Made by a program: the position numbers and the translations under genes
Part shown: positions 2,835 through 36,419 of the stretch, in pieces
Layout of the letters: every line of letters begins with the position of its first letter
How positions within the stretch are numbered: the first letter of the stretch is position 1
DNA from: a virus
Length of the DNA: 38,793 nucleotides
Virus record (IMG/VR): IMGVR_UViG_3300038479_000011
Span: 1-38,793 of that record
Direction: 5' to 3' (one strand)
The notes under the pieces: generated by a model
Told to the model about the DNA's origin: nothing
Database searches by the model: none
The model's input: the letters and a program-made list of their open reading frames with translations, nothing else

Positions 2835-3437
2835 TCAAGCAGGGGCGGGAAGCGTTTCCGAGCCGCCTCCGGGCGAGGTCCAGGTGGTTGCGCCGGCATT
2901 CTGCCACCAGTGGAACACGGTCCCGTTCGGATTCACCACGAAGACGTGCATCTGGTTCCCGAACTCGATGGTTGAGATCGTCATGGGATCCACCGTAGTC
3001 GGGTCGGGGGGAACGGGTGGGGGAACGGGGGGAGGAACGGGGTTTGGCGGGCTCTGCGGGGCGTTGAAGGGTCCGGGGATCGGGATCTCTGCGATGTGCA
3101 ACAGATCCCCCCCGTAGTGGTCTGCGCTCCACGGAGAGGTCACTACGGCTGCGCTGAAGGCGTCCGTGGGGGCATTCTGGGCCAAGGTACCGTAGATGCC
3201 GATCATGTTGGCCTGGCGCAACACAGCCGCCGTGGCTGTAATCGACGCTTCCAGGCTCGGGAAGGACTCCTGACCGCCCTGGGTGAGGTTGTTGACGTTC
3301 AGAGGGTCGTTGTTGTGCCACCAGTTCTCGGGTGGTTCCTCTGCCGCCATCCACCGGACGACGTTGTCCACATTGTTCTGGCTGCTGAGAAGCGGGACTG
3401 CGGCCAGGACAGCTTGCGCCCAACCAAACTGATTCAC
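2835..3437 (-). CDS. endolysin, lysozyme-like domain with C-terminal accessory domain
   Basis: A 200-residue protein. Residues 25-110 carry the pattern of actinophage lysozyme-like domains: WMAAEEP with candidate catalytic E33/E34, then WWHNNDPLN, GGQESFPSLEASITATA, a Tyr in IYGTL and SPWSADHYGG. A Pro-rich linker (about 125-145) leads to a 50-residue beta domain (MHVFVVNPNGTVFHWW) resembling one blade of a lectin-like propeller, which may bind the wall. It should cleave host peptidoglycan from inside at lysis. The GTG start overlaps the holin stop as GTGA, and there is no signal peptide, so export by the holin is expected. It is the last gene of the late operon. Confidence 0.8.
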   Translation of the reverse strand: MNQFGWAQAVLAAVPLLSSQNNVDNVVRWMAAEEPPENWWHNNDPLNVNNLTQGGQESFPSLEASITATAAVLRQANMIGIYGTLAQNAPTDAFSAAVVTSPWSADHYGGDLLHIAEIPIPGPFNAPQSPPNPVPPPVPPPVPPDPTTVDPMTISTIEFGNQMHVFVVNPNGTVFHWWQNAGATTWTSPGGGSETLPAPA

Positions 3438-3646
3438 GTCCGAGTGGCAGGAGTGGGGGCAGGCGAAGGAGAAGCGGTGATCGACGTCCAGGGATGCAAG
3501 AGAATGCCGAACACGCCCAGGATGGCCGAGGCGGTCGGAGACAGGTGGATGCCCGACAGAGCCTGAGTCAGCACCCCGAAGACAACGGCGGCATCGGCCA
3601 TGACGTGCTGCAAAACCGTTTTGAGCTGGGTGGTGGTGATGTTCAT
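3434..3646 (-). CDS. holin candidate, 70 aa
   Basis: A small membrane protein directly upstream of the endolysin. Two hydrophobic stretches (about residues 17-34 and 38-54, the second ILGVFGILLHPW) are followed by a Pro/Thr-rich tail with a terminal Arg. Size, position and hydrophobicity fit a class II-like holin that permeabilises the membrane and releases the lysin. Its start overlaps the preceding gene as ATGA. No family-specific motif was recognised, so the call rests on context. Confidence 0.7.
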   Translation of the reverse strand: MNITTTQLKTVLQHVMADAAVVFGVLTQALSGIHLSPTASAILGVFGILLHPWTSITASPSPAPTPATRT

Positions 3647-3840
3647 GGGTCCTCCGCTGGTTGGGTCTTCTGGAACTTTACCTCAGCGGTCAGCGCCGCG
3701 TTCTTGGTCATGATCTCATCCAACTGATTGTTCACCAGGATATGGACTTCTTTGACCTTTCCGCTGATCTTGGCTGCCCACACCGTTCCTCCCACGGACG
3801 CAAAGGAGACGATGAGGAGGGTGATTGCGTTGACCCACAT
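3643..3840 (-). CDS. small membrane protein with coiled coil in the lysis cassette
   Basis: 65 residues: one N-terminal transmembrane helix (residues 3-22, AITLLIVSFASVGGTVWAA) followed by a Lys/Glu helical stretch (VKEVHILVNNQLDEIMTKNA). Proteins of this shape are common next to phage holins and are annotated as holin-like or spanin-like. A host with a single membrane would not need a spanin, so a second holin or an antiholin is more likely. It overlaps the holin gene by four bases and lies nine bases after the glycosyltransferase. Confidence 0.7.
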   Translation of the reverse strand: MWVNAITLLIVSFASVGGTVWAAKISGKVKEVHILVNNQLDEIMTKNAALTAEVKFQKTQPAEDP

Positions 3841-7737: not shown

Positions 7738-8315
<578 letters not shown>

Positions 8316-8316
<1 letters not shown>

Positions 8317-33150: not shown

Positions 33151-33168
33151 TTGTACCGGTCGGTACAA
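33151..33168. promoter_or_regulatory. TetR-type palindrome, copy A
   Basis: TTGTACCGGTCGGTACAA: two 8-base half sites (TTGTACCG / CGGTACAA) around a 2-base centre. It has the size and spacing of TetR-family operators in Actinobacteria. Confidence 0.75.
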
Positions 33169-33234: not shown

Positions 33235-33252
33235 TTGTACCGGTCAGTACAA
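33235..33252. promoter_or_regulatory. TetR-type palindrome, copy B
   Basis: TTGTACCGGTCAGTACAA, one mismatch to copy A, in the second half site. Its centre is 84 bp from copy A and 28 bp from copy C. Confidence 0.7.
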
Positions 33253-33262
33253 CGGTTCAGTC

Positions 33263-33281
33263 TTGTACCGGTCGGTACAAT
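33263..33281. promoter_or_regulatory. TetR-type palindrome, copy C, overlapping a TACAAT -10 box
   Basis: TTGTACCGGTCGGTACAA, identical to copy A. The last bases plus the next T read TACAAT (33276-33281), five of six to the -10 consensus, so repressor binding would cover a possible promoter. The matching -35 is weak. Confidence 0.7.
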
Positions 33282-33387: not shown

Positions 33388-33681
33388 ATGGATGAAACAC
33401 TGATTGAGCCGGAAGTCGTGTTCAACATGGATCTCGCAAACGGTCCGACTGGTGAGCGCTTCTGTCGTGAGGCGTGCGACGTTATGGGCCTGCTGGTCGA
33501 TGATTCGTACTTCACGGACGACGATGAGGAGTCATTCCTGGGCGAGTACATCGACTGGCTGGATGACCAGCTCTCGATGCGTGGCTACCACGCACACTGG
33601 GATGCCGGCGACGTTGTGGTCTATGACCTTCGCCCATTGTCCGACGATGAGCGCGACGCGTTCTTCGAGCAGCTCGCCTGA
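33388..33681 (+). CDS. highly acidic 97-aa protein, possible DNA mimic
   Basis: GGGAGG lies six bases before ATG 33388. By direct count the protein has 27 Asp/Glu and only five Arg with no Lys, a net charge near -22. Acidic clusters include FTDDDEESF and LSDDERDAFFEQL. Small, very acidic early phage proteins often mimic DNA and inhibit restriction enzymes, nucleoid proteins or other DNA-binding proteins. The fold is unknown, so this is inference from charge. It lies directly after the palindrome-rich region and starts the second part of the plus operon. Confidence 0.72.
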   Translation: MDETLIEPEVVFNMDLANGPTGERFCREACDVMGLLVDDSYFTDDDEESFLGEYIDWLDDQLSMRGYHAHWDAGDVVVYDLRPLSDDERDAFFEQLA

Positions 33682-33744
33682 GTCAATCGACCCAGCTGGC
33701 GGACTGGGCCGATCTACTCCGGATCGGATGAACAAGGGGCAGTC

Positions 33745-34005
33745 ATGACCAGGACAGAAATCGCAGAGACGGTGGCGAGGATCGAGCGGCGGGAGGTAGA
33801 CCGACGGATGGCTTCTCGCATGGACGCGGGCCGGCGTCTGGTTGACGCTCGCAAGCACAACCAGGCAGTCATGCAATCGCTCGAGCTGGATGCATTGCAC
33901 CTGGCCATCACCGGGAACGTCCATGACGTCGCCATCATGGACTTCAAGCCGGCTCCCATCGTCGACAGCGTTGGCTTCGATGACGTCTGGGGTGACGCAC
34001 GCTGA
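33745..34005 (+). CDS. hypothetical protein, 86 aa
   Basis: AAGGGG precedes ATG 33745. The N-terminal half is a charged helix (IAETVARIERREVDRRMASR), the middle is LDALHLAITGNVHDVAIMDF, and the tail is Asp-rich. Hairpins lie both upstream (CCGATC/GATCGG, 33712-33729) and downstream of the gene. Not recognised. Small soluble early protein. Confidence 0.7.
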   Translation: MTRTEIAETVARIERREVDRRMASRMDAGRRLVDARKHNQAVMQSLELDALHLAITGNVHDVAIMDFKPAPIVDSVGFDDVWGDAR

Positions 34006-34013
34006 CCCGGTTG

Positions 34014-34057
34014 ATCGTCCCGAGCGCCTTTCCTCCTCGTTGGGCGCTTGGGTCGAT
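34014..34057. other. intercistronic hairpin in the plus-strand operon
   Basis: The arms 34014-34027 and 34044-34057 pair over 14 positions with one G-T wobble and one T-T mismatch, around a 16-base pyrimidine-rich loop. No U-tract follows. It sits between the 86-residue gene and the LAxTG membrane-protein gene and may adjust relative expression or mRNA decay. Confidence 0.6.
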
Positions 34058-34080
34058 TCACCGAACGAAAGGAAATCACA

Positions 34081-34317
34081 ATGACAGGCTGTGGGTCGTT
34101 CTCAGACGTTTCCTGTTCCAGTCCGCAACTCGGCACCGCTATCAGCGCTCCAGCGCCTCACGTTCAATCCTACGGTCCTCTCGTGCCACATGCGTCGAAT
34201 CTGGCCATGACTGGAGCGGATATCGTGACCATTCTGTTCTGGGGGTGCTTGCTGGTGACTGTGGGAGTGCTTGCAATGGTGAGCGGGCACAAGGCGAAGG
34301 GCAAGACCCCCAAGTGA
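34081..34317 (+). CDS. small membrane protein with LAxTG sortase-type signal, 78 aa
   Basis: GAAAGGAAATCACA fixes ATG 34081; an in-frame upstream ATG at 34048 has no such site. The C-terminal 38 residues are a complete cell-wall sorting signal: LAMTG (41-45), a hydrophobic helix (about 48-67) and a Lys-rich tail (HKAKGKTPK). LAxTG is the motif used by class E sortases of high-GC Actinobacteria. The first 40 residues are Ser/Pro-rich with two cysteines and lack a signal peptide, so an N-out single-pass insertion is needed. If processed, the short N-terminal part would be attached to the wall. A superinfection-exclusion role is a reasonable guess. Confidence 0.75.
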   Translation: MTGCGSFSDVSCSSPQLGTAISAPAPHVQSYGPLVPHASNLAMTGADIVTILFWGCLLVTVGVLAMVSGHKAKGKTPK

Positions 34318-34481
34318 CGCCTGACGAGGAACTGACGGAAGCCCTGATCGACTGCCCCGCCTGTGGGCCCGTCGTTCACCAGCGGATTCCGGAGGATGAA
34401 GCCCATTGCCGGTGCACTCGAGGTGAATTGAAGGGTGTCTCCGGTACGTGGTTGATCTGTTCCTGCCCCTGCCATGGATGA
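34314..34481 (+). CDS. Cys-rich 55-aa protein
   Basis: GTG 34314 overlaps the previous stop as GTGA. Six cysteines and three histidines appear as CPACGPVVH, HCRC and CSCPCHG, enough for one or two zinc sites. The start (acidic, VTPDEELTE) is similar to the starts of other Cys-rich genes in this genome. It overlaps the WhiB gene by eight bases. Function unknown. Confidence 0.7.
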   Translation: MTPDEELTEALIDCPACGPVVHQRIPEDEAHCRCTRGELKGVSGTWLICSCPCHG

Positions 34482-34833
34482 GTGGAAGGTCAGAGCTGCC
34501 TGCCGGGAGGCGCCGGACAAATCCGTCTTCTTCCCTGAACGTGCTACCGAAGTGGCCACTCAGAACCTGGTCAAGCAGGCGAAAGCCATCTGCAAACGCT
34601 GTCCGGTGAGGCGTGAGTGCCTGGACTACGCGCTCGAGCACTACGAGAAGCATGGCGTATGGGGCGGGACCACAGAGCGCGAGCGTCGGAAGCTCGAGAA
34701 GCCCCAGAAGCCGGACCCACGCTACGCCCACGGGACGCCGGAGAAGTACCGCTATGGAGGGTGCCGCTGCCTACCCTGTTCGATGGCCTGGTCTCGACAC
34801 CGGGCCTCGAATCCGTCAATGCGTGGCTTTTAG
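34474..34833 (+). CDS. WhiB-family transcriptional regulator with C-terminal extension
   Basis: A 119-residue protein. The WhiB domain (1-75) has the four Fe-S ligands C10, C40, C43 and C49 (CxxCx5C), the IC-RCPVRRECL core, and the GVWGGTTERERRKL turn that contacts region 4 of SigA. An added C-terminal segment (HGTPEKYRYGGCRCLPC) resembles small Cys-rich modules found separately in actinophages and is not part of ordinary WhiB proteins. Phage WhiB proteins modify host transcription or exclude superinfection. It ends the plus operon and overlaps the convergent nuclease gene by 18 bases. Confidence 0.92.
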   Translation: MDEWKVRAACREAPDKSVFFPERATEVATQNLVKQAKAICKRCPVRRECLDYALEHYEKHGVWGGTTERERRKLEKPQKPDPRYAHGTPEKYRYGGCRCLPCSMAWSRHRASNPSMRGF

Positions 34834-35133: not shown

Positions 35134-35246
35134 CGCTTCAGCCAGGACAGGAAGTCCATGAGCTTGTCCCTACAACGTCCACAGACGGGCTCGTTGCGCC
35201 GGGATATGTCGTAGATGCTCATTTCGCAGAACCAGCAGCTATTCAC
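35130..35246 (-). CDS. 38-aa zinc-finger peptide
   Basis: GTG 35246 overlaps the stop of the lipoprotein gene as GTGA. The peptide contains CWFC and, 15 residues on, CGRC, a standard four-cysteine knuckle, with a hydrophobic C-terminal helix (KLMDFLSWLKR). The longer frame to 35348 overlaps the lipoprotein gene and is unlikely. Co-translated with the nuclease downstream. Confidence 0.68.
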   Translation of the reverse strand: MNSCWFCEMSIYDISRRNEPVCGRCRDKLMDFLSWLKR

Positions 35247-35836
35247 CACGAGGCGCACCCGTCCTGGTCTGGGGGATCGGACTGGATCCTCTCGGCAACG
35301 AGAATCTGAGCATCTGGAGATAGGTCGGAAGTCCCCCCGTTCCCCCACCAGTTGGCAGCGGATATTCCCAGACTGTCCGGGTACTCAGGGCCGGCGTATC
35401 CGATCCAGCCGCCCTCCTCGCAGACAGCCACCTTGGTCCATTCGGCGTACTCAAGAGGGGTCACCGTGCCAGTGCTTGACGCCGCCGCAGGGGCAGGAGT
35501 CGTCATCGCAGGGCTGTCGTCCGATGATGGTTGTGTTACCGGGCCATCTGTAGACGGGGCCGATGGAGGAGGAAGCGGCGGGGATTCTGACGGTGCCTGA
35601 GTCGTTGGAGTAGAGGTAGTCGGTGGTGGCGATGGCGTAGAAGCCGCCGCTGTTGTCGTAGACGGTGGTGTTGTCGGCAGCTTCAGCAACGGCAGCGACG
35701 ATCTTGTGCCAAAGAAACGTTGACCACCACTCTCGTGACTTGCGTGCGGCTGCGATTGTTTCGTAGTCCAGGTCGATGAGCATGCTACTCCAGTCAGAAT
35801 AACGACGAATAGGGCTATAACCAGGGGTTTCTTCAC
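35243..35836 (-). CDS. Rpf-like transglycosylase lipoprotein, 197 aa
   Basis: Residues 1-19 are a lipoprotein signal with lipobox GVAC (C19). Residues 50-125 are a Pro/Thr/Ser-rich linker that could span the cell wall. Residues 129-197 resemble the resuscitation-promoting-factor domain: EWTKVAVCEEGGWIGYAG with candidate catalytic E140, YPDSLGISAANWWGNGG, and Ala/Arg helix DAQILVAERIQ, plus the second Cys (C194). Rpf domains cleave the glycan chain of peptidoglycan. Because it is exported and lipid-anchored, it would act from outside the membrane, unlike the endolysin. The GTG start at 35836 lies beside a hairpin that hides its ribosome site. Confidence 0.82.
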   Translation of the reverse strand: MKKPLVIALFVVILTGVACSSTWTTKQSQPHASHESGGQRFFGTRSSLPLLKLPTTPPSTTTAAASTPSPPPTTSTPTTQAPSESPPLPPPSAPSTDGPVTQPSSDDSPAMTTPAPAAASSTGTVTPLEYAEWTKVAVCEEGGWIGYAGPEYPDSLGISAANWWGNGGTSDLSPDAQILVAERIQSDPPDQDGCASW

Positions 35837-36185: not shown

Positions 36186-36419
36186 TCAAGAAGTGTGACG
36201 TTGGGAAATCGTTTGCGTTCGTTTTCCATAGCTTCCCACCTTTCGTAAGAGGATGCTCACGAGGACTCCGACCATCGCGACCAGGATGAGTACCTGTAAC
36301 AGAGCGCTTCCGCCACCAGCCTCGGCGCACGTCGGGACCTGTAGCCCGTTGGGTGGCGGCACGGTGACACAGGTGACACAGGTAGGCGCAGAAGTGCCGT
36401 TCAGCTGGACGCAAGTCAT
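36186..36419 (-). CDS. small membrane protein with Cys-rich N-terminal segment, 77 aa
   Basis: GAGGA precedes ATG 36419. The first 38 residues hold five cysteines with Pro/Gly and Thr (MTCVQLNGTSAPTCVTC, then VPTCAEAGGGS). A transmembrane helix follows (LLQVLILVAMVGVLVSILL) and then a basic tail (RKVGSYGKRTQT). Positive-inside logic places the N-terminus outside. The layout mirrors the LAxTG protein at 34081 but without a sorting motif. Both may be surface-exposed exclusion proteins. Confidence 0.68.
   Translation of the reverse strand: MTCVQLNGTSAPTCVTCVTVPPPNGLQVPTCAEAGGGSALLQVLILVAMVGVLVSILLRKVGSYGKRTQTISQRHTS

Follow-up and report, generated by a model that had tools for sequence, protein, structure and literature searches.

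The window, which is the whole stretch of DNA analysed here, is the entire linear IMG/VR virus record IMGVR_UViG_3300038479_000011 and has 38,793 bases, from a soil or peat phage that probably has an actinobacterial host. Its portal is P22-like (PF16510), its terminase matches phrog_2 and its structural genes are located on the minus strand. Repetitive sequences are found at 10-375 and 7738-8316 (minus strand), with long tandem repeat coding (MPPG and AAS repeats) where the contig starts and, amid the minus-strand genes, a collagen-like protein with GxT/GPT repeats. Another minus-strand gene, at 35243-35836, codes for a possible lipoprotein (MKKPLVIALFVVILTGVACSS), whose C-terminal domain is weakly transglycosylase/RpfC-like.

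Genes for a 97-aa protein, an 86-aa protein, the mini-protein studied here, a Cys-rich protein of 55 aa and a WhiB protein make up a small cluster on the plus strand (33388-34833; Table 1). The sequence-only reading described it as an early operon with WhiB; the genes are indeed on the same strand and overlap tightly, WhiB included, but the word "early" found no backing, as no sigma-70-like promoter adjoining the cluster was found. Upstream of the cluster, the near-palindrome TTGTACCGGTCGGTACAA occurs three times with spacings of 84 and 28, is absent elsewhere in the window and has a chance expectation of 0.02. These copies look like operators for a dimeric regulator and are likely an operator array of the cluster, which suggests that the cluster is regulated.

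Table 1. Features of the plus-strand cluster and small proteins of Microbacterium phages used for comparison
Feature	Position	Strand	Basis or context
97-aa acidic protein, first likely gene of the cluster	33388-33681	+	ORF list, profile searches, codon bias
86-aa protein	33745-34005	+	ORF list, profile searches; 75 bp 5' of the mini-protein gene
78-aa mini-protein: K/R-free N-tail 1-40, LAMTG 41-45, TM helix about 46-69, basic tail 70-78	34081-34317	+	
LAMTG codons (residues 41-45), class E-type sortase pentapeptide	34201-34215	+	sequence
55-aa Cys-rich (zinc-ribbon-like) protein	34314-34481	+	its GTG start and the stop of the mini-protein share GTGA
WhiB-family regulator	34474-34833	+	PF02467, 84.3 bits; 8-bp overlap with the 55-aa gene
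18-bp near-palindrome TTGTACCGGTCGGTACAA, three copies	33151-33168, 33235-33252, 33263-33280		upstream of the plus-strand cluster
50-51-aa MYN..LAATG..IWWLL..PRR proteins of Microbacterium phages	L116 1144-1299, L117 1129-1281, L118 1129-1281, L119 and L120 1429-1581		directly behind a family 2 glycosyltransferase gene

The mini-protein ORF lies exactly where it had been placed before and codes for MTGCGSFSDVSCSSPQLGTAISAPAPHVQSYGPLVPHASN-LAMTG-ADIVTILFWGCLLVTVGVLAMVSG-HKAKGKTPK. A good ribosome-binding site, AAAGGAAA, is present 5' of its ATG, and its stop shares the four bases GTGA (34314-34317) with the start of the 55-aa gene. Searches of 50,697 phage records, plasmids, IMG/VR, the genome collection and nine phage records related to the window gave no homologue of the mini-protein, so that the gene is an orphan in the collections searched; a match in L001 is a 13-residue chance match in an unrelated contig and was rejected. 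When the 86-aa and 55-aa neighbours were used as bait in the viral_contigs collection, no match was obtained, and the 55-aa protein was found by tblastn in the individual loci L048 and L049. L049, the closest comparable relative, has a portal 87% identical to that of the window and encodes the 55-aa homologue at 3271-3146 (minus strand) with the same GTGA overlap. The gene before it, in the slot of the mini-protein, codes for an unrelated 153-aa protein, which indicates that the slot is variable, as expected for accessory genes.

The ORF could also be a chance frame in a region that is coded otherwise, as it has a weak codon bias (-0.13 bits per codon, GC3 0.66), is overlapped by longer ORFs and lacks homologues in the collections searched. 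One antisense frame over it scores slightly better (-0.05), so composition is insufficient to prove coding. This explanation is nevertheless improbable, given the ribosome-binding site and ATG, the GTGA overlap with a conserved gene, the same style of junction in L049 and a coherent architecture in which a membrane segment is combined with a sorting signal. The ORF is thus likely coding.

The C-terminus of the mini-protein has the class E pattern, in which LAxTG is followed by a hydrophobic helix and then by a basic tail (KxKxKxxK). The best 19-residue hydropathy window starts at residue 48 and reaches 2.47, and AlphaFold predicts a single helix at residues 45-69, with a disordered, low-confidence N-tail. 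A LAxTG or LPxTG motif adjoining the helix arises in 0.2% of local shuffles, and among 63 ORFs with a C-terminal TM segment, in 505 kb of phage DNA, 0.12 such cases are expected and one is observed; taken by itself, the motif argues only modestly against chance. The full sorting signal is better evidence. On an HMM built from 26 Acidimicrobiia sorting signals, which were collected via NCBIfam NF058583, the mini-protein scores 19.1 bits, and 4.4 bits when the motif is removed. This score is reached by none of 5000 full shuffles, by none of 5000 block shuffles and by 3 of 5000 sequences in which LAMTG is kept and shuffling is confined to the helix and tail. Of the 9194 six-frame ORFs taken from the window and 61 viral loci (505 kb), the mini-protein also has the highest score. 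Some selection bias remains, as the mini-protein had been picked among many features. The alignment spans LAMTG and the G/L spacing in the helix (ASNLAMTGADIVTILFWGCLLVTVGVLAMV), and the second-best phage ORF (L010, 2764-3240) was rejected, having no pentapeptide. The NCBIfam LAXTG model NF058583 itself matches residues 39-71 only (E 4.5e-5), and its 23.0 bits are far below the whole-protein cut-off of 65 bits; in a set of 50 related viral records this model gives nothing beyond one weak chance match. The earlier description of LAMTG, hydrophobic helix and Lys-rich tail as a complete class E-type signal is therefore borne out, with a quantitative match to the sorting signals of Acidimicrobiia.

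Only 40 residues precede LAMTG and a signal peptide is absent, both as originally described. No Sec signal peptide was detected at the N-terminus, where the best 11-residue hydropathy window is 0.53. Most sortase substrates have a signal peptide, and so do most of the Acidimicrobiia sorting-signal proteins examined, unlike the mini-protein. The mini-protein has no lysine or arginine before residue 71, and its four lysines are all in the C-tail, after the helix. According to the positive-inside rule, a K/R-free N-tail and a basic C-tail predict an N-out/C-in orientation. Short N-terminal tails of this exoplasmic type are inserted by YidC without Sec (PMC13261788, PMC9360617). Two other roles were considered for the mini-protein and rejected. 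It is not a lipoprotein, as it has neither a signal peptide nor a lipobox context, and it is not the lysis holin, since a likely lysin and small downstream membrane proteins are at 2835-3840, 30 kb from it; the lysin call is based on the appearance of the sequence, Pfam giving DUF346 only.

The same topology would also suit a phage protein that acts within the membrane, perhaps in exclusion or together with a host envelope enzyme, and in which LAMTG is coincidental and unprocessed. The lack of a signal peptide is in line with this possibility, and so is a second small protein of the window, encoded at 36186-36419 (minus strand), whose 77 residues form a Cys-rich, K/R-free N-tail, one TM segment and a basic tail with no LPxTG-like motif. 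The exact placement of LAMTG, rare as it is in local shuffles, and the fit of the full signal to the HMM, which block shuffles do not reproduce, argue for a real sorting signal. A small membrane protein with a coincidental LAMTG is only a little less likely than an anchored one.

Relatives of the portal (45% identity) and TerL (46% identity) are found in an uncultured Acidimicrobiaceae MAG, and a TerL relative with 40% identity is found in a second Acidimicrobiia MAG; in a sample of 396 genomes from the phylum, phage relatives were found in the first MAG and in none of the other genomes. Both contigs with phage relatives are ~36 kb, near the full phage size for this group, which gives them the look of binned viruses and not of prophages; the host is assigned with moderate confidence. 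The phage probably infects an actinobacterium of the class Acidimicrobiia, an assignment drawn from these distant relatives only. In the first MAG, a class E sortase scores above the curated NCBIfam cut-off, a sortase is present in 121 of 148 Acidimicrobiia genomes, and LAxTG signals are common at the C-terminus of Acidimicrobiia surface proteins. No phage-encoded sortase was found. LAXTG is the recognition motif of class E sortases, and in Streptomyces SrtE1 and SrtE2 anchor the long chaplins ChpA-C (PMC5148588).

The mini-protein is probably a phage protein that lacks a signal peptide and carries a host-like class E sorting signal. From the sequence we infer its topology, cleavage and anchoring as follows. 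It would be inserted in the N-out/C-in orientation by its own hydrophobic segment, with no cleavable signal peptide and in the manner of YidC-type substrates, which would place LAMTG directly outside the membrane. A host class E sortase could then cut LAMTG between T and G and join the resulting 44-residue N-terminal peptide to the cell wall. Processing is probable but not certain, and wall anchoring is plausible, at odds slightly short of even. The whole reading, in which the ORF is a genuine accessory gene, belongs to a lineage-specific phage and codes for an N-out/C-in protein with LAMTG outside that is anchored by a class E sortase, has a probability of about 0.47.

An anchored peptide may change the cell surface, exclude superinfecting phages or compete for the sortase. 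Superinfection exclusion, which had been put forward for this protein, is a guess. The mini-protein has no sequence match to known exclusion proteins in PHROGs or Pfam, and the papers searched yielded no precedent for phage-encoded LPXTG or LAXTG anchoring in exclusion. Processing of the signal would mean that a sortase substrate needs no signal peptide to get to the membrane surface and that one tiny phage gene can remodel an actinobacterial wall, and it would suggest a purpose for the signal-peptide-less LAxTG mini-proteins that are in NCBIfam without a stated function. A more general proposal, which we regard as rather unlikely, is that the phage displays a short peptide on the host wall via the class E sortase, that the sorting signal acts as a reverse signal-anchor and that bacterial LAxTG proteins without a signal peptide use the same route.

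Among known systems, class E sortase substrates such as ChpA-C share LAxTG, the hydrophobic helix and the basic tail with the mini-protein, which differs from them in having no Sec signal peptide, only its short stretch before the motif, and a phage origin. Members of the NF058583 family (LAXTG_small_WW) are likewise very small, have no room for a signal peptide and carry LAxTG followed by a helix and basic tail, whereas the mini-protein has a longer N-tail, no WW region and no glycosyltransferase neighbour. A bacterial 50-aa ORF (L115 5102-5254; MYQTIGAPAAAGIGALAYTGSDLLW...), which immediately follows the gene of a family 2 glycosyltransferase, has only 15 residues before LAYTG and no signal peptide. 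Almost all of it is covered by its NF058583 match (E 3.4e-7; 29.8 bits, also under the cut-off of 65), and it scores 32.3 on the Acidimicrobiia sorting-signal HMM, so bacteria apparently have sorting-signal proteins that lack a signal peptide. As this ORF has almost no sequence before its signal, and as the signal is the sole recognisable part of the mini-protein, with its short N-tail predicted to be disordered, the signal could instead be a decoy that occupies the class E sortase of the host, or saturates it, and so keeps the host's own surface proteins, which may be receptors for other phages, from being displayed. We consider this very improbable, as the substrate looks cleavable and the sequence gives no hint of inhibition.

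Small proteins of Microbacterium phages, which include Count gp61, RobsFeet gp87 and relatives in Merry, Tyrumbra and Fireman, are also phage-encoded and have a LAxTG-like pentapeptide, a single helix and a basic tail without a signal peptide. They differ from the mini-protein in that LAATG is in another helix register and the gene is adjacent to a family 2 glycosyltransferase gene, and no homology is detectable beyond the motif. Their scores on the sorting-signal HMM are poor (10.8 and 6.4 bits), and a bacterial relative of them has LAYTG in register with the helix; this shows that motifs of this kind can drift or be incidental, which adds to the case for a coincidental LAMTG. These proteins serve both as a precedent for the format and as a warning of a possibly incidental motif. 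For the preferred N-out/C-in insertion, the nearest likeness is with Pf3 coat-type proteins, which are inserted by YidC only and have a short uncharged N-tail, no signal peptide and a basic C-tail expected inside, but Pf3 coat is a structural phage protein and, unlike the mini-protein, has no sorting signal.
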